Shown piece by piece: positions 18,155-36,215 of a stretch of 36,215 nucleotides of DNA. Location: the NCBI GenBank assembly GCA_028275445.1, contig JAPWUQ010000004.1:1-36215 (forward strand). The letters run 5' to 3'. The first letter of the stretch is position 1, and each line of letters opens with the position of its first letter. This DNA is from Anaerolineae bacterium (GTDB lineage: Bacteria; Chloroflexota; Anaerolineae; JACIWP01). The translations under genes were made by a program, and so were the position numbers. The notes below the pieces were generated by a model, which ran no database searches, had not been told where the DNA came from, and was given only the letters and a program-made list of their open reading frames with translations.

Positions 18155-19378
18155 TCAGTGCACCAGCACCTTGATGCCGGGGTAGCGCAATTTGTAGACG
18201 TGCACAGCGTAATCGCTGAAGGTATCGACCATCGTGCCATCCCGGACCTGCAGAGTGCGGTCCTCGAACAGCACGTCCGCCTTGCTTCCCGGCAGGCCGG
18301 TGAACTTCACCTGGACGGTGTCGCGCACCAGGCTGGCGACGAAGAGATAGGTGTTGCCGCCGTAGTTGCGGGCGGTCATCAGGATAGACGGCTGGCGCAC
18401 ACCCATGGCCGGCGCCGACTGCGTGGGGCCGGAGAGAATGGTGAAGCTCATCCCCTGCGGCACCGGATCCGTGGAGGTGAGGATCGGCTTCAATTGCGTC
18501 AGCTCCGCCAGCACTCGGCGCAGGCTGTCGACCATATCCGGCACATACATGCCGTACTCGAAGGTGTACCAGTCGAGGCCCTGGGCGCCCAGCATCAGCG
18601 GCACATAGGCATCGAAGCGCATGTACTGATAGTTCGGGTGGCCGGCATGGAATCCAGGCGGCAGGGAGGACAGCCCGTTGCGCTCCGCGTAGGTCTGGGC
18701 ATCGAAGAACTGCGGCGTGGCGATGACGGCAGTGTTGGTGCCGGCGACGCCCTCCACTGCCCCCTTGACCCGGGTGACCATCGAAGCGCGATCAATGCCG
18801 TACAGCTCGGGATAGGCGCCGCAGAAGATCACGTCGGTGACGTCGGACCAGTAGCGGAAATAGTCCGGCGTCGCGCCTTCGGCCAGGTACAGCCCCACCG
18901 GCCTCTGCAGGGGGTCCGCCTTTTTGATGAGGTTGTACAGCCGGCGCCACGACTCATGGTCGGCCGCGGTCTTGGGCTCTTCCGGCAGGTACCACATGGA
19001 GACCGCGTTGGACTTGGCCAGCGCCGCCACGTAATTGATGACCGTGGCATCCGAGGCGGTCAGGAACGAGGGGGAGATGGAAACCCGCACTTTCAGGCCG
19101 TTCTGCTCCGCCTGGGCGAAATACTGCTGGTACTCCGCCACGCTCATGGGCACCATGGCGGCGGTGTTGATGCCGGCCTGGCTGACCTGCGAGAAGTACT
19201 CCGGCAGGATGTAATACCCGCCTAGGTGAATGGAGGGAGAGAGGACGCTGGCGATGGAAGGACTGCCGGCGATTGCCGGCGCAGTGCCGGCGAACAGGCT
19301 CACCAGCAGGAGGAACAACGACAGCAGTGCGACCGGGGTAATACTGCGCAATCTGAAGACAGTATGTTCCTTTTTCAT
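18155..19378 (-). CDS. Secreted glycosidase-like TIM-barrel protein, paralogue of the gene at 35572
   Basis: The 407-residue protein has a signal peptide (MKKEHTVFRLRS, Leu-rich core, cleavage near APAIAG). The mature part looks like a TIM-barrel glycoside hydrolase: strand-like segments, WYLPEEPK with E133-E134, GLYLAEGATPDYF, FCGAYPELYGID, and LDWYTFEYG with E274 as a candidate second carboxylate. A beta-rich C-terminal region follows (ILMTARNYGGNTYLFVASL). I do not recognise a numbered GH family, so the enzymatic role is inferred. The lipoprotein at 35572 shares the central region almost motif for motif. ATG 19378 is preferred over the adjacent ATG 19381 because GGTGG then lies four bases upstream; that site is in the arm of a hairpin. 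It is divergent from the glycan operon. Confidence 0.83.
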   Translation of the reverse strand: MKKEHTVFRLRSITPVALLSLFLLLVSLFAGTAPAIAGSPSIASVLSPSIHLGGYYILPEYFSQVSQAGINTAAMVPMSVAEYQQYFAQAEQNGLKVRVSISPSFLTASDATVINYVAALAKSNAVSMWYLPEEPKTAADHESWRRLYNLIKKADPLQRPVGLYLAEGATPDYFRYWSDVTDVIFCGAYPELYGIDRASMVTRVKGAVEGVAGTNTAVIATPQFFDAQTYAERNGLSSLPPGFHAGHPNYQYMRFDAYVPLMLGAQGLDWYTFEYGMYVPDMVDSLRRVLAELTQLKPILTSTDPVPQGMSFTILSGPTQSAPAMGVRQPSILMTARNYGGNTYLFVASLVRDTVQVKFTGLPGSKADVLFEDRTLQVRDGTMVDTFSDYAVHVYKLRYPGIKVLVH

Positions 19379-19383
19379 CATCC

Positions 19384-19444
19384 CACCCCTAGGATAAGAA
19401 TTCGCGGAACTGTATCGTTCCGCTACCTCGATTATCCTGGGGTG
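19384..19444 (-). promoter_or_regulatory. Nested inverted repeats able to hide the ribosome binding site of the 19378 gene
   Basis: Outer arms: CACCCC (19384-19389), one bulged T, AGGATAA (19391-19397), against TTATCCTGGGGTG (19432-19444), 13 paired bases. Inner arms: GCGGAAC (19404-19410) and GTTCCGC (19417-19423). In minus-strand RNA the GGGGUG that serves as ribosome site just before the start codon pairs with CACCCC at the far arm. It may act as a translational switch or, as DNA, as an operator between divergent genes. Confidence 0.6.
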
Positions 19445-19459
19445 TCACACGAAACTGAA

Positions 19460-19475
19460 TAGTACAGCGGTACTA
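19460..19475. repeat. Small inverted repeat TAGTAC-agcg-GTACTA
   Basis: A perfect 6-base inverted repeat with a 4-base centre lies between the nested hairpin and the chain-length gene. It could be an operator half-site pair. I found no convincing sigma-70 promoter for the plus-strand operon in 19382-19532. Confidence 0.35.
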
Positions 19476-19532
19476 CCGGGCAGATTGGGCGGGGGGTACT
19501 TTCTTCCTAATCCAGTATCACGGAGGTGCGCA

Positions 19533-20978
19533 GTGGAGGTTCGGGTCTATCTACAAGCGGTATGGAAATCGATCCAGTGGTTGGCGATCGGCGTGGTTGC
19601 CGCCGCCGGCGTCAGCGTCTTGCTGAGCCTGTTCATCCTGCGGCCAGTCTATCGCGCCACCGCCACTATGATCGTCAACGTCAACGACCCCTTATCCAAT
19701 ACCACCGGCTACACGGCGGCGCTGGCCAGCGAGCGCATGGCCCAGACCTACGCCCAACTGGTGACGGAGCCGGGCATCCTGCAGGAGACGTTACAGCGCG
19801 CCGGCCTTTCCCTGCGCCCCGAACTCTTCCGCGAGCGCGTCACCGTCACCGCCCCACCCAATACCGCCGTCATCCGGGTCGCGGTGGAGGATAACAACCC
19901 GACCCGCTCCGCCGAGCTGGCCAACACGCTGGTGAAAGTGTTCGGCGAACGGGTGCAGACATGGCAGGAGGAGGCCGGCGTCGCCCGCACCGCCTCTTCC
20001 CCTGAAGTGGCCTCCCTGGTCGAGCAACAGCGCCAGTATCTGGCCAACACCCTGGATGCCTACGCCAGCACCTATGCCAACCTGATGGGCATCTACGTGG
20101 AGCTGACGAGCCAGATGCAGTCCATACGCCCCGTGCCGGCGGCGCTCCTCTCCGAGCAGGAGCTGAATGAGCTGGGCCTTTCCCTGCGCACCCAGATGAC
20201 CGATACGCTCCAGGCCATCAACACGCTCGAGGACCGGCTCGCGAAGCTGGAAACCACCCCTCCCACGGCGCAGTTCTCGCCGGCGGAATGGCGCGACGAG
20301 CTGACCCGTCTGGAGAACCTGCTCTATCAGTACCGCTCGCTGTATACCGAACTGCTGAACATCAAATGGACCATGTCCCAGCTTGAGCCGACCCGGCCGC
20401 CGGCGGACCAGGTCACCGCGCAGATGAGCACGGTGGACAGCCTCATCAACTCGGTGCGGGCCAAGATCGCCTCCCTGCAGGAGGAGCTCACGAAGCATGC
20501 GCAGGCCGCGCCGGCGCCGGACGCGCTCTCCCGGCAGGACATCGCCGCCCAAACCGAAACCCTGCGGCAGGAACTGACCGCCCGCCGCGAGGCCTACATC
20601 AACTGGCTCAACGGGTACATCAGCTATCTGCAACTGCGCCAGGCCAACTTGGAGCTTCCGGCGGTGGAAGTGGATGTCAAGGAGCTGGACGCACAGCGCA
20701 AGCAGATTGCCCAGGAAGCGGCGGTGGTATGGGAGCAGATTCAGGACCTGCGCAAGCGTCTGGACTCTTTTGACGAGGTCCATTACGAGCCGGCCGGCCC
20801 GCCCATCATCCTGGCCGAGGCGGCGCTTCCGCCGGCCAAACCGGTGCGCCCCAACCCCCTGCTGAACGGCGTGGTGGCCGGCACCGCCGCCCTCATCATC
20901 GGCCTGCTCATTGTCATCCTGCGGGAATACTTCCGCCTGGCGGCGGAGACCCCCATCGGCGCGGAAGAGCAAGGATGA
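19533..20978 (+). CDS. Wzz-type polysaccharide chain-length determinant protein
   Basis: The 481-residue protein starts at GTG 19533, with GGAGG six bases upstream; the frame extends further left without a ribosome site. One membrane helix lies at about 16-36 (IGVVAAAGVSVLLSLFI) and another near 448-468 (VVAGTAALIIGLLIVIL), the arrangement of polysaccharide co-polymerases. The PVYRATATMIVNV segment after TM1 is typical of Wzz. Between them is a long helical, coiled-coil extracytoplasmic region (residues of about 150-430) with many Leu/Glu/Gln heptads. A Pro-rich stretch (PPAKPVRPNP) precedes TM2. No C-terminal BY-kinase domain is present. It would control the length of the polymer made by the downstream genes. 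It is the first gene of the plus-strand operon. Confidence 0.9.
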   Translation: MEVRVYLQAVWKSIQWLAIGVVAAAGVSVLLSLFILRPVYRATATMIVNVNDPLSNTTGYTAALASERMAQTYAQLVTEPGILQETLQRAGLSLRPELFRERVTVTAPPNTAVIRVAVEDNNPTRSAELANTLVKVFGERVQTWQEEAGVARTASSPEVASLVEQQRQYLANTLDAYASTYANLMGIYVELTSQMQSIRPVPAALLSEQELNELGLSLRTQMTDTLQAINTLEDRLAKLETTPPTAQFSPAEWRDELTRLENLLYQYRSLYTELLNIKWTMSQLEPTRPPADQVTAQMSTVDSLINSVRAKIASLQEELTKHAQAAPAPDALSRQDIAAQTETLRQELTARREAYINWLNGYISYLQLRQANLELPAVEVDVKELDAQRKQIAQEAAVVWEQIQDLRKRLDSFDEVHYEPAGPPIILAEAALPPAKPVRPNPLLNGVVAGTAALIIGLLIVILREYFRLAAETPIGAEEQG

Positions 20979-20988
20979 GGCAGGTATA

Positions 20989-22524
20989 ATGGAACGGCCG
21001 GCAGACACCTCCCCCACATCCGATGCCGCGACCAGGCGCACGACCTTCGTGCGGCTGGCGGTGCGCGATTCGGCCATTTACCTGCCGGCGACGCTGGTGC
21101 AGGGATTGGGAGGCATCGCCGTCACCGCCATCATCAGCAAGCTCTCGACGCCGGCCGATTACGGCAGTTATACCCTGGGCATCAGCCTCTCGACGGCGCT
21201 CGCTATGATCGCCGGCCAGTGGATCAACGAGTCGCTCATCCGCCTCTGGCCCGAGGCGCGCCGGCGCATGGAGCTTCAGCATCTTTACGCCACGCTGGCG
21301 CGCGCCGGCGGCCTGCTGACCCTGCTGGTGATGGCCGCGTCCATCGGCATCCTGGCCTGGTGGCAGCCCGGCCGGCAGGAGGGGCTGTATCCATATCTGC
21401 TGGTCTCCGCCGCCACCTTCCCCCTCCTGGTAGCCTTCGGGGCCATCGCCGCCTGGTGCCGCATCACGGGCCGCTCGCTGTGGTTCAGCGCCTTCGTCAT
21501 CTGGCGGGTGCTGGGAGGGGTCGCCATCGGCGTCCTCCTGGCGCTGGGCGCCCGCATGGGCACCATCGGCTTCCTGTGGGGCATCGCCATTGCCTGGGGA
21601 GCGGTGGTCTTGGGCGTTGCCCTCTCCCGCCGGCAGGCCCTGCGCATTGCCCTGTTTGGGCGCTTTTTCTCGCGGGACATCCTGCGCGAGGCGGTGCGCT
21701 ACAGCCTGCCGCTGACCGGCATCGCCGTCGCCGGCCTGGTCCTTTCCATCTCCGACCGCTACATCATCGGCGGCCTGCTGAGCACATATGCCGTGGGCAT
21801 TTACGCCCTGGGATACTCCATCGCTCAGCGGGGCATGGAGCTGGTGCTGGAGCCGTTCGCTAGGGCTGTCCAGCCCCTCCTCTTCCGTTCCTGGGTGGAG
21901 CAGGGGCCGGCCGAGACCCAGCGGCTGGTCGAGCGTCTGGCGCGCTATTACCTGCTGATGGCCATCCCGCTGGCGGCCGGCCTGACAGCGGTCGCGCGGC
22001 AGGTGGTGCTCCTCCTATCCACCCCGGAATACCTGGACAGCGCCGCCGTCATCGGCATCGTCAGCGCGGCCATGATCTTTTACGGCCTGGCCCGCATGTA
22101 TGAGGAGGCCTTCGCCCTGCAGAAAACGACCTTACCGCTGTTTATCATTTACATCATCACCAGCGCCTTCAACGTGGGCGTGAACCTGGCCGGCATCCCG
22201 CGCTACGGCTACATGGTGGCCGCCTGGTCCACGCTGGCCTCCTACATCCTGATGATGCTGCTCACCGGGGCATGGGCACAGCGGGTCCTGCCCCTGCGGC
22301 TGTTCGGATGGTGGGTGTGGAAGCCGGCGCTGGCATCTGCCGGCATGGTGCTGGCGGTCACGGCGCTCCAGCGGTGGCTGGGGACCAGCTTGTGGCTGTT
22401 GGTGGTGCAGGTCGCCGGCGGTGCGGCCGTATATGCCCTGCTCATCCTGGCGTTCGGGGGAATTTCCCTGCACGAGCTTCAGGAACTGCTCAGGGCCGGC
22501 CGCGCCCGCCTGGGAATGAGATGA
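20989..22524 (+). CDS. Wzx-like polysaccharide flippase (MATE/MOP superfamily)
   Basis: The 511-residue protein has about 12-14 hydrophobic helices after a polar N-terminus. It starts at ATG 20989, 10 bases beyond the previous stop, with GAGGCAGG upstream. LVQGLGGIAVTAIISKLSTPADYGSYTLGIS is a typical first helical pair of the polysaccharide transporter (PST) family, and SISDRYIIGGLLSTYAVGIYALGY a typical central one. It is expected to flip lipid-linked glycan units from the inner to the outer face of the cytoplasmic membrane. Its place directly after the chain-length gene and before the ligase/polymerase supports a Wzx/Wzy pathway. Confidence 0.93.
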   Translation: MERPADTSPTSDAATRRTTFVRLAVRDSAIYLPATLVQGLGGIAVTAIISKLSTPADYGSYTLGISLSTALAMIAGQWINESLIRLWPEARRRMELQHLYATLARAGGLLTLLVMAASIGILAWWQPGRQEGLYPYLLVSAATFPLLVAFGAIAAWCRITGRSLWFSAFVIWRVLGGVAIGVLLALGARMGTIGFLWGIAIAWGAVVLGVALSRRQALRIALFGRFFSRDILREAVRYSLPLTGIAVAGLVLSISDRYIIGGLLSTYAVGIYALGYSIAQRGMELVLEPFARAVQPLLFRSWVEQGPAETQRLVERLARYYLLMAIPLAAGLTAVARQVVLLLSTPEYLDSAAVIGIVSAAMIFYGLARMYEEAFALQKTTLPLFIIYIITSAFNVGVNLAGIPRYGYMVAAWSTLASYILMMLLTGAWAQRVLPLRLFGWWVWKPALASAGMVLAVTALQRWLGTSLWLLVVQVAGGAAVYALLILAFGGISLHELQELLRAGRARLGMR

Positions 22525-22540
22525 ATAGGGAGGAGAAGGA

Positions 22541-23158
22541 GTGACAGTGGGAAAAATCCAGGACCTTCTGCGCCGGCTCGTGAAAAAGGTCTTCGAGCAC
22601 AACGAGTATTACATCTTTGTCAACCGCTCGCTGGACGACTTGCCGCCCGAGCGGCCTCTGCCGGCCGGCCTGCGCATCGTGCGGATTGACCAGGGGAACG
22701 CGGACGAGCTGGAGCGGATAGAAGGCCTGCCGGCCAACAAGCGGCGCGACTTCCGCAGGATGCTCGCCCAGGGGCAGGTCGGCTATTTCGCGCTGGACGG
22801 TCAGCGGGCGGCCGGCCATCTGTGGGCTATCATCCCCCGCCCGAATGAGGTGGTGAACCGCGGCTATGTGCGGGTCTATCCCGGCGAAGCATATGCCCAC
22901 TACGCCCATACCTACCCGCCGTACCGCCGGCAGGGCATCGCCTCTGCCCTGTCCCTCCACTTCCTGCATGATGTCCTGAACAGGCCGGACGTTCGCATGG
23001 TCAAGGCCAGCGTCCTCACGACCAACACTCCCAGCCTGGCAATGATGGAAGCCCTGCACGGCCGGCGGGTCGGCCGCATCTCGCACTGGCGGGTGTTGGG
23101 AATCCATTACCGCAAGGTCCTGCTGGACCCCGGACAAGAACAAGGAGCGCGCTGGTGA
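22541..23158 (+). CDS. GNAT-family N-acetyltransferase
   Basis: The 205-residue protein starts at GTG 22541 with GGGAGGAG five bases upstream. Residues of about 60-195 form a GNAT fold; YPPYRRQGIASALSLHFLHD (about 125-145) is the acetyl-CoA pyrophosphate-binding motif (R/Q-x-x-G-x-A), and VLTTNTPSLAMMEALHGRRVGR is the helix-strand motif B. The N-terminus (NEYYIFVNRSLDD) is specific to this protein. The substrate may be an amino sugar or protein of the glycan pathway. The final codons overlap the start of the next gene (GTGA), so translation is coupled to the FemAB-like pair. Confidence 0.87.
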   Translation: MTVGKIQDLLRRLVKKVFEHNEYYIFVNRSLDDLPPERPLPAGLRIVRIDQGNADELERIEGLPANKRRDFRRMLAQGQVGYFALDGQRAAGHLWAIIPRPNEVVNRGYVRVYPGEAYAHYAHTYPPYRRQGIASALSLHFLHDVLNRPDVRMVKASVLTTNTPSLAMMEALHGRRVGRISHWRVLGIHYRKVLLDPGQEQGARW

Positions 23159-24168
23159 GCGAGGAATTCACGGCCAGGTCCCTCACGCCTGAGGAATATC
23201 CCCTCTGGGACGCGCTGGTGGACACGGCGCCCTCCGGCACCCCGTTCCAGGCCACCTGGTGGATGGGAACCCTGGCAAGGGAGCTGAAAGCGCATTTTGA
23301 GGTAGTGGGATGCTTCCGCAAAGGCGTGCTGTGGGGAGGCTGTGCCCTGTTCGGCCGGCGCACCGGCCCCTTCTGCCGGCTGGTATTCCCTCCCTCGGCC
23401 CTCTACAACGGCATCGTGGTAAAGCCCAGGGACACCGATTCCTACCCCACTCAGGTCATGCACACCATCGGCGTGACCGAGTGCCTGGGAAGCTGGATCC
23501 GACAGCACGCCCATGAAGCGCACTTGACCCACCACCACTCTCTGCTCGACGTACGGGGGCTGATCTGGCAGGGCTGGCGCAGTCGGGTGCGCTATACATA
23601 CATCCTCCCGCTGGGCAGTCGGGAGGAGATGATCGGGCGTGCGGAGCGCACCCGCGGCGCCATGTTTCGTCAGGCGGAACGCGCCGGCCTGCGCTGTGAA
23701 CCCAGCGATGACATCGAGGCCTTCCTCCCGCTGTACGCCCGGACGTTCGCCCGACACGGGTTGGAGTCACCGGTCCCCCTGCCGGCCATCGCCGCCATCT
23801 ACCGCGCCGGCCGAGAGCGAGGGGCCGCCCAGCTCTTCCTCACCCGTACTCCCGCCGGCGAGGTCGTCAGCGGCACCATCGCCCTCTGGACCCAGCGCAA
23901 TGCCATGCTCTGGCTGGCCGCCAGCAAGCCCGAATGGCTGGAGCAGGGCGCCTCGGTATTCACCTATTTTGAGACCTTCGTCCACCTGGCCGAGCGCTTC
24001 CAAGAGGTGGATTTCGCCTCGGCCAATGTACACTCCCTGCATCATAACGCGGCCCTGCTGGGGGGCGAACTGCGGCTGGTCGCCCGCACCGAGCTGACGC
24101 GCTCGCCGGCCCTGCGCTTTTTCCATGCCCTGCGGCATATCAGGCGCTTTCAACCGGAGGAAGGATAA
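23155..24168 (+). CDS. FemAB-like aminoacyl/acyl transferase, copy 1
   Basis: The 337-residue protein starts at GTG 23155, overlapping the previous stop by four bases. It has the FemAB/BioF2-like double GNAT layout: an N-terminal lobe with PFQATWWM, VVGCF, LWGGCALFGRRTGPF and FPPSALYNGIVV. A C-terminal lobe has DDIEAFLPLYARTFARHGLESP, GEVVSGTIALW, MLWLAASKPEW and VDFASANVHSLHHNAA. Family members transfer an amino acid from aminoacyl-tRNA to peptidoglycan precursors, or act in exopolysaccharide loci with unknown acceptors. The position inside the glycan operon favours the second role. Copy 2 follows directly with no gap (TAA then ATG). No membrane segment. Confidence 0.85.
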   Translation: MSEEFTARSLTPEEYPLWDALVDTAPSGTPFQATWWMGTLARELKAHFEVVGCFRKGVLWGGCALFGRRTGPFCRLVFPPSALYNGIVVKPRDTDSYPTQVMHTIGVTECLGSWIRQHAHEAHLTHHHSLLDVRGLIWQGWRSRVRYTYILPLGSREEMIGRAERTRGAMFRQAERAGLRCEPSDDIEAFLPLYARTFARHGLESPVPLPAIAAIYRAGRERGAAQLFLTRTPAGEVVSGTIALWTQRNAMLWLAASKPEWLEQGASVFTYFETFVHLAERFQEVDFASANVHSLHHNAALLGGELRLVARTELTRSPALRFFHALRHIRRFQPEEG

Positions 24169-25206
24169 ATGAGCCAGGGAGAAGAGACCACCGGAGGCAA
24201 GGGCTATACGGTGCGCCGGCTGGAACCCGCGGAATATCCCGCCTGGGACACGCTGGTGTGGGAATCCCCTGCCGGCACGCTCTTTCAGACCTCCTGGTGG
24301 CTGGAAGCGCTGTGCCGGCTGACCGGCGCCCAACTGGAAATCGTCGGCTGTTTCGACAAGAAGGGGGCGCTCTGGGGGGGATGTGCGCTCTACGCGCGGC
24401 AGACCGGTCCCTGGAAGCGCGCCCTGTTCCCGCCGGCCTGTCCATACAACGGCATGGCCGTGCGCCGGCGCGACACCCCCAACTACCGCCGACAAATGGT
24501 GCACACCCTGGAGGTCACGGAAGCGCTGGCCGCCTATCTGGAGGAACACTATTCGGAGACCCTGCTGGCCCACCGCTATGAACTGGCGGACGTGCGGAGC
24601 ATGAGCTGGCGGGGCTGGGAGACCGCCCTGCGCTACACCTACGAAGGGGAAACGGCCGAGCTGAAACAGCTTTTGCGGGTGACGACCCGTACTCGCCGGC
24701 AGAAATTCGAGCGCGCCCAGGAACTGGGATATACCTGCCAGGCCGAGGATGACATCACAGCCTTCCTGCCGCTGTACCGCGCCACCTATTCCCGGCACGG
24801 CCTGGACACGCCGCTGAATCCGTCCCAAGTGGAAGCCATGTACCGGCTGGCCAGGGAGCGTCAGGCGGCGCGCTTGTTCATCACCCACTCTCCCGCCGGC
24901 GAACCGGTCAGCGGCATGATCATCCTGATGGACCCCCACCGCTGTTACACCTGGTTGTTCGCCAACCACCCGGCGCACCTGCGCGAGGGGGTCCCGACCT
25001 TCACCGTGCTTTCCACCATCGCCGCGCTGGCCGGCCTGGTGCGCGTCGTGGACCACGCCTCGGCCAATTTCCCCCAACTGCACCGCAGTGTGCTGGAGGA
25101 GGGGGGCATCTTGAAACCGGTGCTGGTAACGCATCACAACCGCTCTCGCTTGTTGCAGTGCATCCATGAGATGGGATTCATCCTGGGTGGCGAGCATGCA
25201 CGGTAA
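24169..25206 (+). CDS. FemAB-like aminoacyl/acyl transferase, copy 2
   Basis: The 345-residue paralogue of the preceding protein is aligned over its full length. Shared landmarks are LFQTSWWL, IVGCF, LWGGCALYARQTGPW, FPPACPYNGMAV, HTLEVTEAL, DDITAFLPLYRATYSRHGLDTP, GEPVSGMIIL and DHASANFPQLHRSV. The sequences differ throughout, so the duplication is not recent and the substrates may differ. ATG 24169 follows the stop of copy 1 immediately; the ribosome site GGAGGAAGG lies in the end of copy 1. Its stop at 25204-25206 overlaps the next gene's start by 11 bases. As in copy 1 the fold is two GNAT-like lobes, and the acceptor is unknown. Confidence 0.85.
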   Translation: MSQGEETTGGKGYTVRRLEPAEYPAWDTLVWESPAGTLFQTSWWLEALCRLTGAQLEIVGCFDKKGALWGGCALYARQTGPWKRALFPPACPYNGMAVRRRDTPNYRRQMVHTLEVTEALAAYLEEHYSETLLAHRYELADVRSMSWRGWETALRYTYEGETAELKQLLRVTTRTRRQKFERAQELGYTCQAEDDITAFLPLYRATYSRHGLDTPLNPSQVEAMYRLARERQAARLFITHSPAGEPVSGMIILMDPHRCYTWLFANHPAHLREGVPTFTVLSTIAALAGLVRVVDHASANFPQLHRSVLEEGGILKPVLVTHHNRSRLLQCIHEMGFILGGEHAR

Positions 25207-26593
25207 TCGCACGCAAAGGTCCGCGAGCCTACCATCTATCCAGTGGCTGATCCTCGGCGCCGCGCTGATCATCGGCGTCATCGTGCCGCTGTTGCTGACG
25301 CTCCCGCCGCGTCTGCTGGCGGTGCTGGGCATGCTGCCGGCGGCCGTCATCCTCTGGGTGCCGGAACTGGCCGTGGTGCTGATGCAGGACGCGTTGGGCA
25401 TCGTGCAGTCCTTCACCCGGCTCATCGGCATCCCCATCGAGAGCGGCTTCGCCTTCGGGCTGGCCGGCGCCGCTCTGCTGGGATACATCCTGCTGGCCCT
25501 CCGCCATCGTCTGGTGTACCGCGCCATCCTGTCCCCGCTGTCCCTGGCCACGTACGCCCTGGTCGCCGTGCTGGGCCTCAGTATCCTGCGGAGCGGCCCG
25601 CAGGTGGGGTTGGACAAGTTCCTGCGCTTCGCCGGCTTCAACCTGCTGGGCTTCCTGCTGGCCTCTCTGACGCCGGCACCGCGCCGGCGCTGGCTGGTGT
25701 ACGGCTTCATCCCGGTGGGCGCGGCCGGCATCGCCAGCGTCGGGTTGGCGCTGACCCAAATGTCGGCCGTTGGCCGGCTGACGGCCTTCGGCGGCAACCC
25801 CATCTGGACCTCCCGCCTGCTGTGCGTCGCCGGCCTGGTCATGCTGTGGTGGCCCAACCTGTCGTACTGGATCCGGGTGCCGGCGGCCACGGCCTTCTTC
25901 ATCGTGGCGGTGTTCACCGGCTCCCGCGGCCCCTTACTCACCAGCGGGCTGATTATCGCCGTGGCACTTCTCGGCCGTGCCCTGTATGCCCGCCGGCGCC
26001 ATACTGCTGGCGAATCACTCATCCTGTTCCTGGGCATGATGTTCGTGGCCGGCGCCGGCTTCCTCGCCCTGCGCGCCATTGCCAGCGAGCAGGCGGCCGT
26101 CAACCCCTATTCGCCCTTCGTCCGCATCTTCGCCGGCACGCCCGAGACCGAGGCCAGCACCGAGACCCGCCTGGCGCTGTACCAGATTGCCCTGGAGCAG
26201 TTCGGGCAGAACCCCCTCTTCGGCATCGGCCTGGGCGGCATGGTCACTGTCCTGCAAACCGCCGGCGTGGTCTATCCGCACAACCTGTTCCTGGAGTTCG
26301 CCTCCGAGACCGGCATCATCGGACTGCTCCTGCATGCCCTGGGCCTCATCCTGGCCTTCTTCGGAGCGGTTCCCTATCTGCGGGATGCTTCTCCCCGCAC
26401 CCGCGCGGATACTGCCATCGGGCTGATGCTCTTCCTCTTTGCCCTGCTGAACGCGCAGGTCAGCGGCGACATGGTGGGCAACAAGATGCTGTGGTTCTTC
26501 ATGGGCTATCTGAACGGCCTGGTATCGGAAAAGGGCTGGGGCGTTCCTGGGTTCCTGCGCCGGCGGAAAGTATTGGTGCGCAAAGAGGAGTAG
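25196..26593 (+). CDS. O-antigen ligase/polymerase-like membrane protein (Wzy_C family)
   Basis: The 465-residue protein has about 11-12 membrane helices. I chose ATG 25196 (GGTGG upstream, 11-base overlap with the previous gene); an in-frame ATG at 25166 would lengthen the overlap. Family landmarks are FTGSRGPLLTSG at about residue 240 and, in the large extracytoplasmic loop, TETRLALYQIALEQFGQNPLFGIGLGG, then YPHNLFLEFASETGIIGLLLHAL. WaaL ligases and Wzy polymerases share this fold. As no other polymerase is encoded here, it may polymerise repeat units or attach the finished glycan to a surface acceptor. Which of the two cannot be told from sequence. Confidence 0.9.
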   Translation: MHGNRTQRSASLPSIQWLILGAALIIGVIVPLLLTLPPRLLAVLGMLPAAVILWVPELAVVLMQDALGIVQSFTRLIGIPIESGFAFGLAGAALLGYILLALRHRLVYRAILSPLSLATYALVAVLGLSILRSGPQVGLDKFLRFAGFNLLGFLLASLTPAPRRRWLVYGFIPVGAAGIASVGLALTQMSAVGRLTAFGGNPIWTSRLLCVAGLVMLWWPNLSYWIRVPAATAFFIVAVFTGSRGPLLTSGLIIAVALLGRALYARRRHTAGESLILFLGMMFVAGAGFLALRAIASEQAAVNPYSPFVRIFAGTPETEASTETRLALYQIALEQFGQNPLFGIGLGGMVTVLQTAGVVYPHNLFLEFASETGIIGLLLHALGLILAFFGAVPYLRDASPRTRADTAIGLMLFLFALLNAQVSGDMVGNKMLWFFMGYLNGLVSEKGWGVPGFLRRRKVLVRKEE

Positions 26594-26599
26594 CGCGGC

Positions 26600-27577: not shown

Positions 27578-27578
27578 G

Positions 27579-28757: not shown

Positions 28758-29859
28758 GGTCCTGCACGTCATCGCCTCCCTGCGCGTGGGCGGCGCCCAA
28801 TCGGTGCTGGCCTACCTCCTGCGGCAGTGGCGCGGCCAGTCCCGCTATCAGTTCGCCGTCGCCGCGGTCCTGCCCGGCGGCCAGTTCATGCCCATGATCG
28901 AGGCCATGGGCGTGCCGGTCTACGAGCTGGGCGTCTCCGTTCCCTATGACCCACGCGCCATTTGGCGCCTGCGGGATGTCCTACAGCGCGAACAGCCGGA
29001 CATCATCCACTGCCACCTGTTTTACGCCAATCTCTACGCCGCGCTGGCCAACCGCATGGGACGCCGCCGGCCCCTCATCTACACCGAGCACAGCATCTGG
29101 AACCGCCGGCGCGGAATGGCCATCATGCGGCCGTTCGACCGCTGGCTGGCGAAGCAGTTCGACCATGTGGTGGCGGTGGCGGAGATCGCGAAGGCGCGCT
29201 TCGTGGAGTGGACGGGATATGACGCGGGGCGGGTCACAGTCATCCCCAACGGCATCGCCGTCGAGGATTTCCCGCCGGTGGTGGACGTGCCGGCCCAGCG
29301 GGCGGCCTGGGGGCTTTCCCCCAACGATTTCGCCTTCATCACGGTCGGCCGGCTGGCCCCGCCCAAGGGTCTGCACCATCTGCTCCGGGCAGCGCGCCTG
29401 CTGGCCGACGCCGGCCGGCGCTTCCGCCTGCTCATCGTCGGCGACGGGCCCCTGCGCCTGACGCTGGAGGAGCTGGCCGGCGCGCTGGAGCTGAGCCCCT
29501 GGGTGACCTTCTTCGGGGCGCGCTCCGATGCGCCGGTGTTGATGACGGCCAGCGACGCCTTCGTGCTGGCGTCGGAATGGGAGGCCCTGCCCATGGCCCT
29601 GCTGGAGGCCATGGCCTGCTGCAAGCCGGCCGTCGTCACGCGGGTCGGCGCCATCCCCGAGGTGGTGCGCCATGGGGAAGAGGGCCTGCTGGTGCCGCCG
29701 GCCGAACCGAACGCGCTGGCCCACGCCATGGCCCTGCTGATGGACATGCCGGCGGACGAGCGCCGGCGTCTGGGCCTGCAGGCCCGCCGGCGGGTGGAGG
29801 AAGCCTACCACATCCGACAGACCGCCGAACGTCTGCTGGACCTCTACGACCAGTTTTGA
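28747..29859 (+). CDS. GT4-family glycosyltransferase
   Basis: The 370-residue GT-B enzyme has complete family motifs. SLRVGGAQSVLAYLL is the nucleotide-sugar enzyme N-terminus. DIIHCHLFYANLYAAL and YTEHSIWN form the acceptor side, VIPNGIAVEDF is the inter-lobe linker, and FITVGRLAPPKGLHHLL contains the Arg and Lys that bind donor phosphates. SEWEALPMALLEAMACCKPAVVT carries the EX7E pair. ATG 28747 has GAGGAGG upstream and lies inside the last codons of the previous gene (11-base overlap). It is expected to add one sugar to the growing glycan at the inner face of the membrane; the sugar is unknown. Confidence 0.93.
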   Translation: MPRKVLHVIASLRVGGAQSVLAYLLRQWRGQSRYQFAVAAVLPGGQFMPMIEAMGVPVYELGVSVPYDPRAIWRLRDVLQREQPDIIHCHLFYANLYAALANRMGRRRPLIYTEHSIWNRRRGMAIMRPFDRWLAKQFDHVVAVAEIAKARFVEWTGYDAGRVTVIPNGIAVEDFPPVVDVPAQRAAWGLSPNDFAFITVGRLAPPKGLHHLLRAARLLADAGRRFRLLIVGDGPLRLTLEELAGALELSPWVTFFGARSDAPVLMTASDAFVLASEWEALPMALLEAMACCKPAVVTRVGAIPEVVRHGEEGLLVPPAEPNALAHAMALLMDMPADERRRLGLQARRRVEEAYHIRQTAERLLDLYDQF

Positions 29860-29872
29860 GGGAACGCACACC

Positions 29873-31024
29873 ATGCGCATCGCCCATGTCGCCACCGTGG
29901 ACATCACCCTGAAGGCGCTGTTACTGCCGCAGGTGCGCTATCTGCTGGCGCGCGGCCATGAGGTGGAGATGATCGCCAGCGCCGGCCCCCATACCCCGGC
30001 ACTGCATCAGGCCGGCTTCGTGGTGCACAATGTCTTCATCTCGCGCCGCATCGAGCCATGGCGCGACCTGCGCTCCGCCATCGAACTGGCGCGCCTGTTC
30101 CGCCGCCGGCGCTATGACCTGGTGCACACGCACACCTCCAAGGCCGGCTTCGTCGGGCGGCTGGCAGGGCGCCTGGCCGGCGTGCCGGTGGTCGCCCACA
30201 CGGCGCACGGCTTCTTCTTCCATGAGAATATGCCGCCCCTCCAGCGCCGGCTCTTCGAAGGGCTGGAACGCCTGGCCGCCGGCTGGACAGACCTGCTGTT
30301 CCTGCAGAGCCGTGAGGATTACGAGTACGTGCTGGCCAGCGGCATGATGCCGCCGGCGCGCGTTCGCTACCTGGGCAACGGCATTGACCTGAGCGCGTTC
30401 GACATCACACGCTGGGACCGGCCCTGGGAGCGCCAGTTTCTGCGCCAGACATTCTTCGGTGACGGGGATTACATTGTCGCCCTCATGGTCGCCTTTATGA
30501 TTGAGCGCAAGGGCCATATCTACCTGCTCCGGGCGCTGGAAGCGATGGGGGAGGAGCGCGAGCGCCTGCGCGTCCTCCTAGTGGGAGACGGGCCGCTGGA
30601 GGAGTCCCTGCGGGGGTTCGTGCGGGACGCCGGCCTGGAACGCCATGTGGCCTTTGCCGGCTATCGCGAGGATATCCCCCGCCTGCTGGCCGGCGCCGAT
30701 ATATACGTCCTGCCCTCCCTCTCCGAGGGCATGCCGCGCTCCATCCTGGAGGCTATGGCCATGGAACTGCCGGTCATCGCCTCCGATATCCGCGGCTGTC
30801 GCGAGCTGGTGGTGGACGGCGAGACCGGCCTGCTGGTGCCGCCGGCGGACGCCGGCGCGCTGGCGGAGGCCCTGCGCCGGCTGGCCGGCGACGCGGATCT
30901 GCGGCGCAGGATGGGGGAGGCCGGCCGACAGCGCGTCCAACAGGAATTCGATGAGCGGCTGGTCTTTCAGCGCCTGGAAGAGGGCTACCGAGATATCCTG
31001 CAGGCGAAGGGATTGTGGAAATGA
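29873..31024 (+). CDS. GT4-family glycosyltransferase
   Basis: The 383-residue GT-B enzyme has an N-lobe with VATVDITLKALLLPQVRYL, YDLVHTHTSKAGFVGRLAG and VVAHTAHGFFFHE, close to the WbpH/PglA-type enzymes that start from a lipid-linked sugar. The C-lobe has VAFMIERKGHIYLLRAL (Arg/Lys pair), LLVGDGPLEESL and SLSEGMPRSILEAMAMELPVIAS with the EX7E pair. HTSKAGF plus AHGF is typical of enzymes acting right after the phosphoglycosyl transferase, which is the next gene. ATG 29873 is 13 bases past the previous stop. Its stop overlaps the next start as ATGA. Confidence 0.93.
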   Translation: MRIAHVATVDITLKALLLPQVRYLLARGHEVEMIASAGPHTPALHQAGFVVHNVFISRRIEPWRDLRSAIELARLFRRRRYDLVHTHTSKAGFVGRLAGRLAGVPVVAHTAHGFFFHENMPPLQRRLFEGLERLAAGWTDLLFLQSREDYEYVLASGMMPPARVRYLGNGIDLSAFDITRWDRPWERQFLRQTFFGDGDYIVALMVAFMIERKGHIYLLRALEAMGEERERLRVLLVGDGPLEESLRGFVRDAGLERHVAFAGYREDIPRLLAGADIYVLPSLSEGMPRSILEAMAMELPVIASDIRGCRELVVDGETGLLVPPADAGALAEALRRLAGDADLRRRMGEAGRQRVQQEFDERLVFQRLEEGYRDILQAKGLWK

Positions 31025-31731
31025 CGGAAATGCGCGAGGGCGAATACATCGTCACCATGGAGGACGTGCCGGTGTGCGCCGCCGGCGGAGCGGCCGGCCG
31101 GCTCCTCAAGACCCTCTTTGACCGCATTCTGGCGTTCATCGGCCTGCTCATCCTCCTGCCGCTGTTCGCGCTCATCGCCCTGCTGATCCGGCTGGATTCG
31201 CCCGGGCCGGTCTTCTTCCGCCAGATGCGCGTCGGCAAGGACGGCCGGCTCTTCCGCATCTATAAGTTCCGCACCATGGTGGTGAACGCCGAGCAAATCG
31301 GCCTGGGGGTGCACACGCGCGCGGATGACCCCCGCATCACCCGCGTCGGCAGGGTCCTGCGCAAGCTCAGCCTGGATGAACTGCCCCAACTCATCAACAT
31401 CCTGAAGGGCGAGATGAGCTTTGTCGGGCCGCGCCCCACCCTGCCGTACCAGGTACTGCGCTACAACCCCCGGCAGAAGGGCCGTCTGCTGGTCCCGCCG
31501 GGGGTGACCGGCTGGGCACAGATTCACGGCCGCAGGGCCTTGACCTGGCCCGAGCGCATCGAGTATGATATATGGTACGTGGAGCACTGGTCCCCTTGGC
31601 TGGACCTGGTCATCCTCCTGCGGACCCTGCCGGCCGTCCTCACGGCGCGCGGCGTGGACGACGCCGGCATTGGCGATGAGATATCCCGGCTGGAGCCGGC
31701 CGAGACCCCTTCGGACGACGGGAAGGTATGA
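31021..31731 (+). CDS. Monotopic phosphoglycosyl transferase (bacterial sugar transferase)
   Basis: The 236-residue protein starts at ATG 31021, overlapping the previous stop as ATGA; an in-frame GTG at 31015 is less likely. One re-entrant hydrophobic segment (about 29-58, [21 protein letters not shown]) precedes the catalytic core: [22 protein letters not shown], the Asp-Glu pair in [20 protein letters not shown], and [13 protein letters not shown]. It transfers a sugar phosphate from UDP-sugar to polyprenyl phosphate, the first step of glycan assembly. The small size matches the PglC-like core rather than the long WcaJ type. The C-terminal tail (residues of about 215-236) is acidic. The NeuD-like gene follows with another ATGA overlap. 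Confidence 0.95.
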
Positions 31732-32396
31732 GCAAGGTGATTCTGCTGGGCGCCGGCGGACTGGCGCGCGAGGTCCTGGACGGCATCGAGGCTTGTCAGC
31801 GCGCCGGCCAGGATATCCAACCTATCGGCTACATCGACGCGGATGCCGCGCTGTGGGGGCAGGAGATCAACGGCCTGCCGGTGCTGGGCGGGCTGGATTG
31901 GTTCGATGAGGCGCCCGGCCGGCGGGATATCCCCCTCATCGCCGCCATCGGCGCCCCGCGCAGCCGCCGGCATATGGTCCAGGAAGCGCTCCGCCGCGGC
32001 CTGCAGTTTACCTCGCTGGTCCATCCGGCCGTCCACCTCTCCTCCCGGGCACAGTTGGGCCTGGGGGTGGTGATCCTGGCCGGCTGTGTGGTGGAAAACC
32101 GCGCCAGCATCGGGGACTTTACCGTTATCAACAATCTGTGCTTCATCGGACATGATGTCCAGCTCGGCGCATACTGCACGCTGGCCCCGGGCGCCCTCCT
32201 CGCCGGCGGAAGCCGGCTCGGCGATGGGGTGGATTTCGGCATCGGCGCCGCCACCCGTCAGGGCGTGACCATCGGAAGCGGCGCAGTCATCGGCGGACAG
32301 GCGATGATCGTGGAGGATGTGCCGGCCAACGCGGTGGTCGTCGGGGTGCCGGGGCGCGTCATGCGCTTTTTCACGCCGGCCTGGGAAGAGGAGTGA
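31728..32396 (+). CDS. NeuD/PglD-like sugar O/N-acyltransferase
   Basis: The 222-residue protein has an N-terminal Rossmann-like half (ILLGAGGLAREVLDGIEA, IGYIDAD, PLIAAIGAP) that binds the sugar nucleotide. The C-terminal half is a left-handed beta-helix of hexapeptide repeats (VILAGCVVENRASIGDFTVI, LGDGVDFGIGAATRQGVTIG). His142 in IGHDVQLG is the expected catalytic base. VGVPGRVMR ends the fold as in PglD. It acylates an amino or hydroxyl group of a nucleotide sugar with acyl-CoA. ATG 31728 overlaps the phosphoglycosyl transferase stop (ATGA), as pglC-pglD pairs often are. A gap of 45 bases separates it from the repeat protein. Confidence 0.93.
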   Translation: MSKVILLGAGGLAREVLDGIEACQRAGQDIQPIGYIDADAALWGQEINGLPVLGGLDWFDEAPGRRDIPLIAAIGAPRSRRHMVQEALRRGLQFTSLVHPAVHLSSRAQLGLGVVILAGCVVENRASIGDFTVINNLCFIGHDVQLGAYCTLAPGALLAGGSRLGDGVDFGIGAATRQGVTIGSGAVIGGQAMIVEDVPANAVVVGVPGRVMRFFTPAWEEE

Positions 32397-32441
32397 CCGC
32401 ACCCCCGGGTGCCCGCACAGTCACCAGAAAGGAAGTGACAA

Positions 32442-35400
32442 ATGAACGGACGCAGTGACCTTGTTCGGCGTGGATTGCTGGCAGTGGGTATCGCTGTCCT
32501 GCTGGTCCTGGCAGTCTCGCTCGCCGTATGGGGCATGCCGGCCGGCCAGCTTTCCGAACCCCCGGCCGAGGAAGCCCCCCTCACCCCGCCGCGCCTGCCG
32601 GCCGTGCCACAGCCGTCGGGAGAGCTGGCGCCGGCCTCGTTCCACGAAATTTACGTCGCCGAGACCTACAACCGCGTGTACGGCACGGTGGGCGCCCGCG
32701 CCGCCGTGTCCATGCAGTTGCTGGACCCGGCCAAACAGGAAAAGGGCCATGACCTGGTGGATGCCGACGGCAAGGGATTCTTCCAGGGCGCCTTTTACGC
32801 CGGCGGCATCAAGGGGAGCGGCGCACAGCCGGCCGACATCCGCGCCGGCGACGAGGTGCTCATCACCACCGGCGCAGAGACCTTCCGCGCCGTGGTCCCG
32901 CCCATGACCACCACCCTCGATATCCCCACGGACCGGGTCCTCGGCACCGCACTGCCCTATACACAGGTGTTCGTCACTGTGCAGGGACAACAGCTCACGC
33001 TGACCTCTAATTTCGCCGGCGCCTACAGCGTCAGCTTCGCCGGCCGCGTGGATATCCTGCCGGCGGATATGGCGCGCGTCATCTTCGCCGCCGGCGACCT
33101 CTGGATGGAAAAGAACGCCTTTGCCCCAGGGCCCAAGGTCCGCCCGCAGGATGATGAGGTGCTCGGATATGATGCGCCCGGCCTCATCGTCGCGGGCGCG
33201 CTGTACTCCGCGGCCGGCGAGCTGAAGGGCCTGGCCAGCGCCACCACGAACCTCACCGACGGCGGCTACATCCTCATCTTTGGGGAAGGGACGCCGGCGG
33301 ACATCATCCCCGGTGATCGGGTAGTGGTCACCGCCACGCAGGTTGTCACGGCGCCGGTGCTGGCCCTGGACGCCAGCGTGAACCTCGCGACGGACACGGT
33401 CAGCGGGCATGCGCCCGCCGGCCGGCGCGTGCGCGTCGTCGTCAGCCACCCCGGGCCGGCCGGCGTGGAGTGGTACGTGCGGCACGCCACGGCCGACACC
33501 GCCGGCAGTTTCCGCATCACCTTCGGCGATATCGTGGACCTGCAGGCCGGCGATGAGCTTTGGGTCGCCGTCGGCGACAATTTCAGCACCACCGAGATAT
33601 ACGTCCGCCCGCGGCACGTGCTGGTGGACCAATACTACGACCGGGTGGAAGGTGCCGCGGATCCCGGCGAGGAACTGCGGGTGGCGCTGCTGGACGCCGC
33701 CGGCGCTTTGCTGGAGGAGCGCACCGTCCTGGCCCACGAGACCACCGGCAGTTTCGAGGCGTATTTCGACCACGACATCATGCCTGGTCAGAGGGTGCGC
33801 GTCGCCGGCCAGGCCGTCACCACCACCGTCGAAGTGCTGGATTTCACCGCCCAAGTGGAGATTAACACCGATCGGCTCATCATACATGGGCCACCCTCCG
33901 CCCGGCTGTACGGCTGGTACTCCACCCAGCAGGCGGAGAGCGTCTATCTGAACTTCCAGACGGACGCCGCCGGCAATGCCGAGATACCCCTGACGGGCTA
34001 TGACCTGCGCGACGGCGATGACGGTTCGTTATACTACACGGATGCCAACGGCAATATCAACTACTTCAAGTTCCGCCAGCCGGCGCTGGCCGCCAACACC
34101 CGCCAGGGGCGCGTGCTGAGCTGGTTCGACCGCAACAGCGACGCGACCTTCTCCCTCTATGACGGGAGCGGGGCCCTGAAAGAAAGCGCGAGCGTGCGCG
34201 CCAACTCCGCCGGCTTCGCGGATTGGTGGCCGACCAGCGGACTGCGCGACGGCGACCTGGTGGTCATCGAGTGCTGTCGCGGCCGGCGGGCGGAACTGCG
34301 GCTCACGCCGCTTTCGGCCCGCGCCGACACCACCCAGAACCTGCTGACCGGCCAGGCGCCGGCCTCCAGCGTGGTGCTGGCCGAAATCGTTCGCCGCGAT
34401 CCCTTCACCAGCGGGGAAACCCTGTACCAGAAATCCGCTCAGGCCGACGCCGGCGGTGCCTATCGCGTGCCCTTTGATGATATCGTCCACATACGCGCCG
34501 GCGACCGCTTCCGCGTCTGGTGGCAGAACGCCGACGGCGATTGGATGCTCGTGGACCATTATGCCGCGCAGATCACCGTCAACCAGACCGAAAGCGCCGT
34601 CTACGGCGTGGGGCTGGACTACAGCGCGCCCGTGACCATCACCCTGCACGGCCCCGACGGCACGCTGAAGGCGACAAAGACGGCCTTGGCGGACCGCTAC
34701 AGCTACCTGCCCTGGACGGTCCTGCCGGCCCAGGTGCTGTTCGGCGACCGCGTGCGCCTTTCCGACGGCCGGCAGACCATCGAAATCCCGGTGGACGCGC
34801 TCTCGGTGGACATAGACCCGCTCGGCGACCGCCTGACCACCCATGGGCTTCCGAACGCCGAGCTGTCCATCTGGGTGGAGCACCCGCCGGAGCTGGGGAA
34901 CTGGGATAAGCGCGCCGGCCAGAGCGACGCCGCCGGCATCTTCACCATGGACTATGCCGGCAGTCTGGACCTGCAGTCCGGCGACCGCGTCCTGGTGGAA
35001 CAGAGCAATCCCGCCGGCCACCGCGTCGGCATCCTGCAGTCCGCCCTGCGCCTCGCCGTCCACCAGACCTATAACAACGTGGAGCTGTGGACGGAACCCG
35101 GCCGGCTCGTCACCATGACCCTGCGCTCCGCCGCCGGCGCGGTCAAGGAGGTCAAGACCGTGGCGGCCAGCCCGGCGAACGGGCGCGTCTTCCGCGCCGA
35201 AGGGCAGTTCGGCGCGGATATCTGGCCCGGCGACGTGCTGGAGGCAGATAACGGCCGGCTCGCCATCCAGGTGCCCATCGCCCCCATCCATGCACTGCTG
35301 GATATCCCGGGCAATCGCGTCGCCGGCATCGTGCCGCCGGCACGGCCGGTGCGCCTCGATTTCCACATTGGGCCGGCGACGTATACCGTCTACGGCTGGA

Positions 35401-35558
35401 GCGATGACGCTGGCGCCTTCGTCGTCGGGCCGGGCGCCGGGCGAACCCTGTCCGCCGGCGATTCCGCCGACGTGTGGTACATTGATGAACAGGGACAGCG
35501 GGTTGGGGTATGGACCTTTGCCGTGACCCAGGTGCTCTTCCCGCTGATACAACCGTGA
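32442..35558 (+). CDS. Giant exported protein of about twelve beta-rich repeats
   Basis: The 1038-residue protein starts at ATG 32442 with AGGAAG seven to nine bases upstream. It has an N-terminal hydrophobic segment (about 11-31) and a Pro-rich spacer (35-62). From about 68 to the end, units of 65-90 residues repeat. Each opens like VxxxYDRVxGxAxPG, contains an A-DAAGSFxxxF stretch, and ends like DIxAGDxVxV. I count about twelve by the recurring GD turns (for example RAGDEVLI, IPGDRVVV, LQAGDELWV, LRDGDLVVI, LQSGDRVLV, IWPGDVLEA, LSAGDSADV). The fold is probably Ig-like or carboxypeptidase-regulatory-like. The C-terminus is LFPLIQP. I do not recognise a named family. Its place at the end of the glycan operon suggests an extracellular glycan-binding or scaffold role. 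Confidence 0.85.
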   Translation: MNGRSDLVRRGLLAVGIAVLLVLAVSLAVWGMPAGQLSEPPAEEAPLTPPRLPAVPQPSGELAPASFHEIYVAETYNRVYGTVGARAAVSMQLLDPAKQEKGHDLVDADGKGFFQGAFYAGGIKGSGAQPADIRAGDEVLITTGAETFRAVVPPMTTTLDIPTDRVLGTALPYTQVFVTVQGQQLTLTSNFAGAYSVSFAGRVDILPADMARVIFAAGDLWMEKNAFAPGPKVRPQDDEVLGYDAPGLIVAGALYSAAGELKGLASATTNLTDGGYILIFGEGTPADIIPGDRVVVTATQVVTAPVLALDASVNLATDTVSGHAPAGRRVRVVVSHPGPAGVEWYVRHATADTAGSFRITFGDIVDLQAGDELWVAVGDNFSTTEIYVRPRHVLVDQYYDRVEGAADPGEELRVALLDAAGALLEERTVLAHETTGSFEAYFDHDIMPGQRVRVAGQAVTTTVEVLDFTAQVEINTDRLIIHGPPSARLYGWYSTQQAESVYLNFQTDAAGNAEIPLTGYDLRDGDDGSLYYTDANGNINYFKFRQPALAANTRQGRVLSWFDRNSDATFSLYDGSGALKESASVRANSAGFADWWPTSGLRDGDLVVIECCRGRRAELRLTPLSARADTTQNLLTGQAPASSVVLAEIVRRDPFTSGETLYQKSAQADAGGAYRVPFDDIVHIRAGDRFRVWWQNADGDWMLVDHYAAQITVNQTESAVYGVGLDYSAPVTITLHGPDGTLKATKTALADRYSYLPWTVLPAQVLFGDRVRLSDGRQTIEIPVDALSVDIDPLGDRLTTHGLPNAELSIWVEHPPELGNWDKRAGQSDAAGIFTMDYAGSLDLQSGDRVLVEQSNPAGHRVGILQSALRLAVHQTYNNVELWTEPGRLVTMTLRSAAGAVKEVKTVAASPANGRVFRAEGQFGADIWPGDVLEADNGRLAIQVPIAPIHALLDIPGNRVAGIVPPARPVRLDFHIGPATYTVYGWSDDAGAFVVGPGAGRTLSAGDSADVWYIDEQGQRVGVWTFAVTQVLFPLIQP

Positions 35559-35571
35559 TGGAGGGGCTTCG

Positions 35572-36215
35572 ATGACGCGTATTGGGCTGGCCGGCCTGCT
35601 GGCCTGCATCGCCCTGGCCGGCCTGTGGGCCTGCCAGCCCATCTGGCCGCCGGCCACTCCCACTCCGCCGGCGACCCCGACTTCCCCGGGCCAGCCCACC
35701 CTCACGCCGGCGCCGGCCGATTTCCTGTACCTGGGCGTATACGGCGTCGCGCCGGCCGCTCTGCCGAGGGCCGCGGCGGCCGGCGTGCGCGTGGTGGCCA
35801 TGCCGCCGGCGGAACTGCAGGCCACCCTCGCCTACATGGACGCCGCCCACGCCCTCGGCCTGCGCGTCCGGGTCTCCCTCTCCCCATCGTTCCTGAATGC
35901 CAAAGAGGACGATATCGCCGCGTATCTCGGGCCGCTGGCTTCCCATCCCGCGCTACAGCTCTGGTACCTGCCGGAAGAACCCAAAAGCTCCTCCGACCAT
36001 GGGCGCTGGAAGCGGCTGTATGAGCTGGTGAAGAAGCATGATGCCGGCCGCCATCCCATCGGGGTATACCTGGCCGAGGGAGCGACTGAGGAGTATTTCG
36101 CCGGCTGGACCGATATCTGCGACCTCATCTTTGCCGGCGCCTATCCCGAATACTACCACATCCCCCGCGCCGCCCTCTATACACGGGTGCACAACGCCGG
36201 CCTGGCCGCCCAGCG
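35572..36215 (+). CDS. Glycosidase-like lipoprotein, paralogue of the gene at 18155-19378 (3' end outside window)
   Basis: ATG 35572 follows GGAGGGG by five bases and opens a frame of 214 codons that runs off the window. Residues 1-21 form a lipoprotein signal ending LAGLWAC (Cys21); Trp at -2 is unusual. A Thr/Pro-rich spacer (25-48) leads to the enzyme-like domain. RVRVSLSPSFL, WYLPEEPK (E135-E136), HPIGVYLAEGATEEYF and FAGAYPEYYHIPRA match the secreted protein at 18155-19378 in order. The copy here is membrane-anchored, the other is free. The two border the glycan operon on each side. Trimming or remodelling of the polymer is an inference from the TIM-barrel look and context. Confidence 0.85.
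   Translation, partial: MTRIGLAGLLACIALAGLWACQPIWPPATPTPPATPTSPGQPTLTPAPADFLYLGVYGVAPAALPRAAAAGVRVVAMPPAELQATLAYMDAAHALGLRVRVSLSPSFLNAKEDDIAAYLGPLASHPALQLWYLPEEPKSSSDHGRWKRLYELVKKHDAGRHPIGVYLAEGATEEYFAGWTDICDLIFAGAYPEYYHIPRAALYTRVHNAGLAAQ

Follow-up and report, generated by a model that had tools for sequence, protein, structure and literature searches.

Exopolysaccharide clusters often include genes for glycosyl hydrolases, and the reason they are needed there is still debated (PMC9075953). The locus described here raises that question in a particular form, as two related proteins, A and B, stand on either side of a run of polysaccharide genes; we asked whether they are glycosidases, whether they belong with the genes between them, and what they might do there. 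The window, by which we mean the whole stretch of DNA analysed, is one entire contig of 36215 bases. The features needed for the argument are the following.

16524-18101, plus strand: glycosyltransferase-GAF fusion, left of A and in the same place in the sister species
18155-19381, minus strand: A, 408 aa, starting MM, signal peptide at about residues 1-38
19382-19484: intergenic spacer from which A and the operon diverge, with the inverted repeat GCGGAACGATACAGTTCCGC at 19404-19423
19485-20978, plus strand: Wzz-type chain-length protein (Pfam Wzz), first operon gene
20911-22524, plus strand: Wzx-type flippase (Polysacc_synt_3)
22541-23158, plus strand: GNAT acetyltransferase
23155-24168, plus strand: FemAB-like Acetyltransf_6 protein
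24169-25206, plus strand: FemAB-like Acetyltransf_6 protein, second copy
25166-26593, plus strand: Wzy-type polymerase or O-antigen ligase (Wzy_C)
26600-27577, plus strand: probable polysaccharide deacetylase-like protein, beginning MRLIVTVDTEAD
27564-28757, 28723-29859 and 29873-31024, plus strand: three GT4-type glycosyltransferases
31015-31731, plus strand: initiating sugar phosphate transferase (Bac_transf)
31728-32396, plus strand: PglD-like hexapeptide acyltransferase
32442-35558, plus strand: exported protein of 1038 aa with repeats (Big_6-like, below threshold); the next gene is B
35572-36215, plus strand: B, paralogue of A, 214 of about 401 aa in view

Both A and B are real open reading frames with coding-like codon usage. 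The initial annotation had recognised the frame of A but began it at 19378, which is the second methionine; the frame starts at 19381, and residues are numbered here on the resulting 408-aa protein. The frame of B is still open at 36213 and lacks a stop because the window is a complete contig whose end cuts the gene; orthologues of B have 401-414 aa. The motifs SPSFL, WYLPEEPK, YLAEGAT and GAYPE are present in both proteins in the same order, as had been noticed at the outset, and the paralogy proposed on that basis is confirmed by a gap-free alignment of 170 residues with 45% identity (E = 2e-46), a likeness far beyond chance. When the 2.9-Mb draft genome was searched, A and B alone were matched.

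The plus-strand run between A and B is a Wzx/Wzy-type polysaccharide locus. The product of 26600-27577 had no match in Pfam and is a probable polysaccharide deacetylase-like protein, judging from its start, MRLIVTVDTEAD. The inverted repeat GCGGAACGATACAGTTCCGC between A and the wzz gene is a possible operator. The 1038-aa protein consists of diverged Ig-like repeats, shares 95% and 87% identity with its counterparts in two sister species, and is possibly a surface or matrix protein. Further left on the minus strand, the window encodes an LGFP-repeat protein (3-1313) and an FG-GAP plus BACON-like repeat protein (3477-5453), both probably exported. Rfam gave no match anywhere in the window.

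We compared this arrangement across the order's three genomes, all of one genus, with the two sister species designated G001 and G002. A and B are present in 3/3 species, as the only two copies in each genome, and both sisters keep the same gene order all the way from an MCP-like gene on the left of A to B itself; in G002 a single contig holds A, the operon and B, whereas in G001 they are divided between two contigs, both of which end inside the same gene, the deacetylase gene. The suggestion that the paired paralogues are linked to glycan synthesis genes is thus upheld, with full synteny, in 3/3 species of the genus, and such conserved linkage is what marks a glycosidase in an exopolysaccharide locus as a functional kind. 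A is divergent at the left border, as described in the initial annotation, but B is not the operon's last gene, since a gene for a DUF7033 protein directly follows it on the same strand in both sisters (15 nt away in G002, where the protein has 504 aa, and abutting in G001). From a reading of its THDIDS... sequence, the DUF7033 protein is probably a polysaccharide deacetylase as well. Values of dN/dS for A (0.12-0.16) and B (0.13-0.27) are near those of the operon genes (0.12-0.20), indicating that both have been kept functional by purifying selection. In a tree of twelve sequences, the A proteins and the B proteins each make up a well supported group, and the two groups are sisters (97/99). 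A single duplication before the three known species separated would explain the pair, within the limits set by long branches elsewhere in the tree. In G002, four CRISPR-like repeats (core TAATGCCCTTGCGGGCATTCGTTGTTTTC) are located just 3' of the operon (L014 7500-7763); none were found in the window or in the G001 contigs.

The two proteins appear to leave the cytoplasm by different signals. A carries a standard signal peptide which, read from the sequence, ends in APAIA and is followed by GSPS. The N-terminus of B is hydrophobic and continues into LWAC and a Pro/Thr-rich linker, and LWAC with the linker after it is kept in B of all three species. A looser lipobox pattern matches, but the strict PROSITE pattern PS51257 fails in 3/3 B orthologues owing to the Trp at -2 of LWAC. 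The earlier view of one secreted and one lipid-anchored protein therefore stands for the signal peptide of A, while the lipobox of B is atypical; lipid anchoring of B through a non-canonical lipobox is likely but not firm.

With regard to family, Pfam and NCBIfam contain no model that scores above cut-off for A or B, in agreement with the initial annotation, which had recognised no numbered GH family. Below cut-off, Pfam Glyco_hydro_2_C reached 12 bits on B and Pfam GH42 reached 17-18 bits on relatives, against a cut-off of 21 in each case. Profile searches matched GH158 (E 9e-11), GH2 and GH42 structures, each over parts of the barrel, and these sequence profiles would place the family near clan GH-A. 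AF2 models of A and full-length B, built on a 12-row alignment, show eight alternating strands and helices followed by a C-terminal beta-sandwich (mean pLDDT 80 for A and 83 for B; pTM 0.79 and 0.80, respectively). In A, beta-1 spans residues 52-56, beta-4 127-131, beta-7 218-224 and beta-8 268-272. The best 50 Foldseek matches are glycosidase and related barrels throughout, with TM of about 0.4-0.6, and they include GH140, GH30, GH5, GH158 and 4zn2, listed as "Glycosyl hydrolase from Pseudomonas aeruginosa", which we take to be PslG. The TIM-barrel glycosidase fold that had been predicted is hence reproduced, and both models contain the (beta/alpha)8 barrel expected of clan GH-A.

A broad spread of the family was not borne out. 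The nearest named record to A is CALIBQ010000025.1, an uncultured Anaerolineae MAG (Chloroflexota), at 88% protein identity, and a genome-collection scan found the sister species alone. Single-sequence searches placed the A/B family in 7/396 genomes of the class and, across the phylum, in the window's own genome alone among 400. A profile search gave matches in 60/396 genomes of the class, a figure we rejected as a measure of family spread; most of these matches span the generic beta-3 to beta-6 region alone and so were not counted as members. Clear relatives of A and B occur in four other genera of the class; among the relatives found, paired copies flanking a synthesis operon are restricted to this genus. 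One relative (G044:C10) lies within a polysaccharide locus together with FemAB-like, CapD-like, DegT and DUF3473 deacetylase genes.

In clan GH-A the acid/base Glu stands directly after beta-4, usually with Asn before it, and the nucleophile is a Glu at the end of beta-7. Directly after beta-4, E135-P136 is invariant in 17 sequences, and E135 fits the acid/base position; it is preceded in A and B by Glu rather than Asn, residue 134 being Glu in A, B and G044, Asp in most others and Asn in one. At the beta-7 nucleophile position, residue 224, all five A/B sequences that cover it have Gln where the clan has Glu, and the nearest carboxylate is D227. This column holds Glu in the three G044 domains, a Glu lies at or beside it in G330 and G069, and GH42 alignments put the nucleophile within one residue of it. 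Of the candidate catalytic residues named initially, the Glu after beta-4 is invariant and fits an acid/base; E274 (E275 in our numbering), which we considered as the nucleophile and rejected, comes after beta-8, and L025 is the one relative that shares it with A and B. Residues E168, E192, D227, D270 and E275 are common to A and B and absent from most relatives; D227 and E275 are not conserved outside the genus, except for E275 in L025. The classical catalytic pair is incomplete in A and B. Given the Gln at beta-7, catalysis would need D227, E275 or other chemistry, and with E135 invariant but the nucleophile position altered, hydrolysis by A and B is plausible, not more, on the sequences and models considered here.

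GH158 (BuGH158, an endo-beta-1,3-glucanase, and 9oro, GH158(Pro)) is the best sequence-profile match to the A/B family and resembles it in the (beta/alpha)8 barrel, the C-terminal Ig-like domain and a Glu at the acid/base position after beta-4 (PMC7157763), but the alignment reaches no further than beta-6, roughly two thirds of the way through the barrel (profile positions 53-189 of 392). Neither N136 before E137 nor the nucleophile E220 of BuGH158 (PMC7157763) has an equivalent in A and B, which thus lack both full-length similarity to GH158 and its N-E/E catalytic residues; BuGH158 moreover belongs to a glucan-utilisation locus, unlike A and B. The GH42 beta-galactosidases give a profile match over beta-5 to beta-8 and have a similar 'GAxGixyf' strand 8, but Pfam Glyco_hydro_42 remains under cut-off and their nucleophile Glu is absent from A and B.

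A close functional likeness is to PslG, a GH39 enzyme of the Pseudomonas aeruginosa psl operon, which like A and B is an exported glycosyl hydrolase barrel encoded in an exopolysaccharide synthesis locus. PslG uses Glu165 as acid/base and Glu276 as nucleophile (PMC11912335), whereas in A and B the nucleophile is replaced by Gln; they share about 13% identity with PslG and come as a pair. In PelA and PgaB, glycan cutting and deacetylation are likewise encoded with synthesis genes (PMC9894940, PMC10269871, PMC5933820); those systems are synthase-dependent and combine both activities in one bifunctional protein, while here two paralogues and separate deacetylase-like genes accompany a Wzx/Wzy locus. 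We read A and B as members of a glycosidase-fold family, so far uncharacterised, that would serve an exopolysaccharide locus in a role comparable to that of PslG, PelA and PgaB. The initial annotation had proposed a dedicated build-and-trim system. Build-and-trim is already a familiar theme in exopolysaccharide loci, and glycosidases in them are known (PMC9075953, PMC9894940, PMC5933820); the paired copies and the changed active site vary that theme.

The interpretation we favour, with a probability of roughly 55%, is that A and B are a GH-A-like barrel pair that serves the neighbouring polysaccharide, most likely by cutting or trimming the polymer outside the membrane. Having arisen by the duplication that would predate the split of the three species, both proteins would be exported, with their GH-A-like (beta/alpha)8 barrel and C-terminal beta-sandwich, to serve the polysaccharide of the Wzx/Wzy/Wzz operon. 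There they would bind the nascent or finished polymer and most likely cut or trim it, A as a free secreted form and B tethered at the cell surface, such that chain length would be adjusted or polymer released, as by PslG, PelA and PgaB elsewhere. Three elements of this account are inferred: action of A and B on the polymer of their own operon, its hydrolysis, and the lipid anchor of B. Against the account stand the Gln at beta-7 and TM-scores to solved glycosidases of only 0.4-0.6. Biofilms are shaped by glycosidases whose genes accompany those for exopolysaccharide synthesis, and a locus with one free and one probably tethered paralogue would allow polymer processing by secreted and by surface-held forms to be compared cleanly. 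The unnamed A/B family sits in a poorly cultured class, and its altered active site offers a test of how a GH-A barrel may work without the usual nucleophile or turn into a binding protein.

One may postulate that A and B are pseudo-enzymes, non-catalytic proteins descended from glycosidases, which bind the exopolysaccharide, B holding the polymer at the surface and A bridging or coating it in the matrix. The Gln at beta-7 would be explained in this way, a Glu being present in or next to this column in G044, G330 and G069, and one free and one anchored copy suits a binding role; yet the Glu at the acid/base position never varies, nor does the Pro after it, and E134, E192, D227 and E275 have been kept in A and B after long divergence, which binding would not obviously require. 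We consider this scenario possible but doubtful. A more far-reaching proposal, that of a new family in which D227/E275 replaces the beta-7 nucleophile and the free and tethered pair sets exopolysaccharide length and release, seems to us unlikely.

The loss of the beta-7 Glu could also be accommodated if catalysis by A and B were substrate-assisted and directed at N-acetylhexosamine linkages, as in GH20/GH123, since no beta-7 nucleophile is then needed; residue 134 would hold the 2-acetamido group in place, with E135 as the acid/base. GH123-type enzymes have a DE motif with these roles (PMC11087588), an adjacent acidic pair follows beta-4 in the A/B family (EE in A, B and G044; DE in most distant relatives), and the probable deacetylases in the operon suggest a HexNAc polymer. 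However, DE itself is confined to distant relatives, and exchange of Asp for Glu in the motif, giving the residue that A and B have, left little or no activity (PMC11087588); G044 relatives carry both the EE pair and the beta-7 Glu, and neither sequence searches nor the listed fold matches yielded GH20, GH123 or DUF4091. We regard this mechanism as quite unlikely. Finally, A and B might be foraging glycosidases for outside polysaccharides whose proximity to the operon is historical. Relatives in other genera do adjoin unrelated or degradation genes, which speaks against the favoured interpretation: they are near a heparinase/alginate-lyase-like protein (G330), a GHL10 protein (G152) or carA. 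Against foraging, both copies occupy the same places in 3/3 species, B sits inside the operon at short same-strand spacing, and no transporter or utilisation genes lie next to A and B; we judge it very unlikely.

Two relatives have unusual architectures. An open reading frame in L025 (394-2481) starts with the N-terminus of a LysE-like transporter and continues into an A-like barrel domain; the fusion may be genuine or may come from faulty assembly. In G044:C57 (L049 8016-12500), a 1495-aa protein encoded beside carA contains two A-like barrel domains with Ig/PKD-like domains between them.
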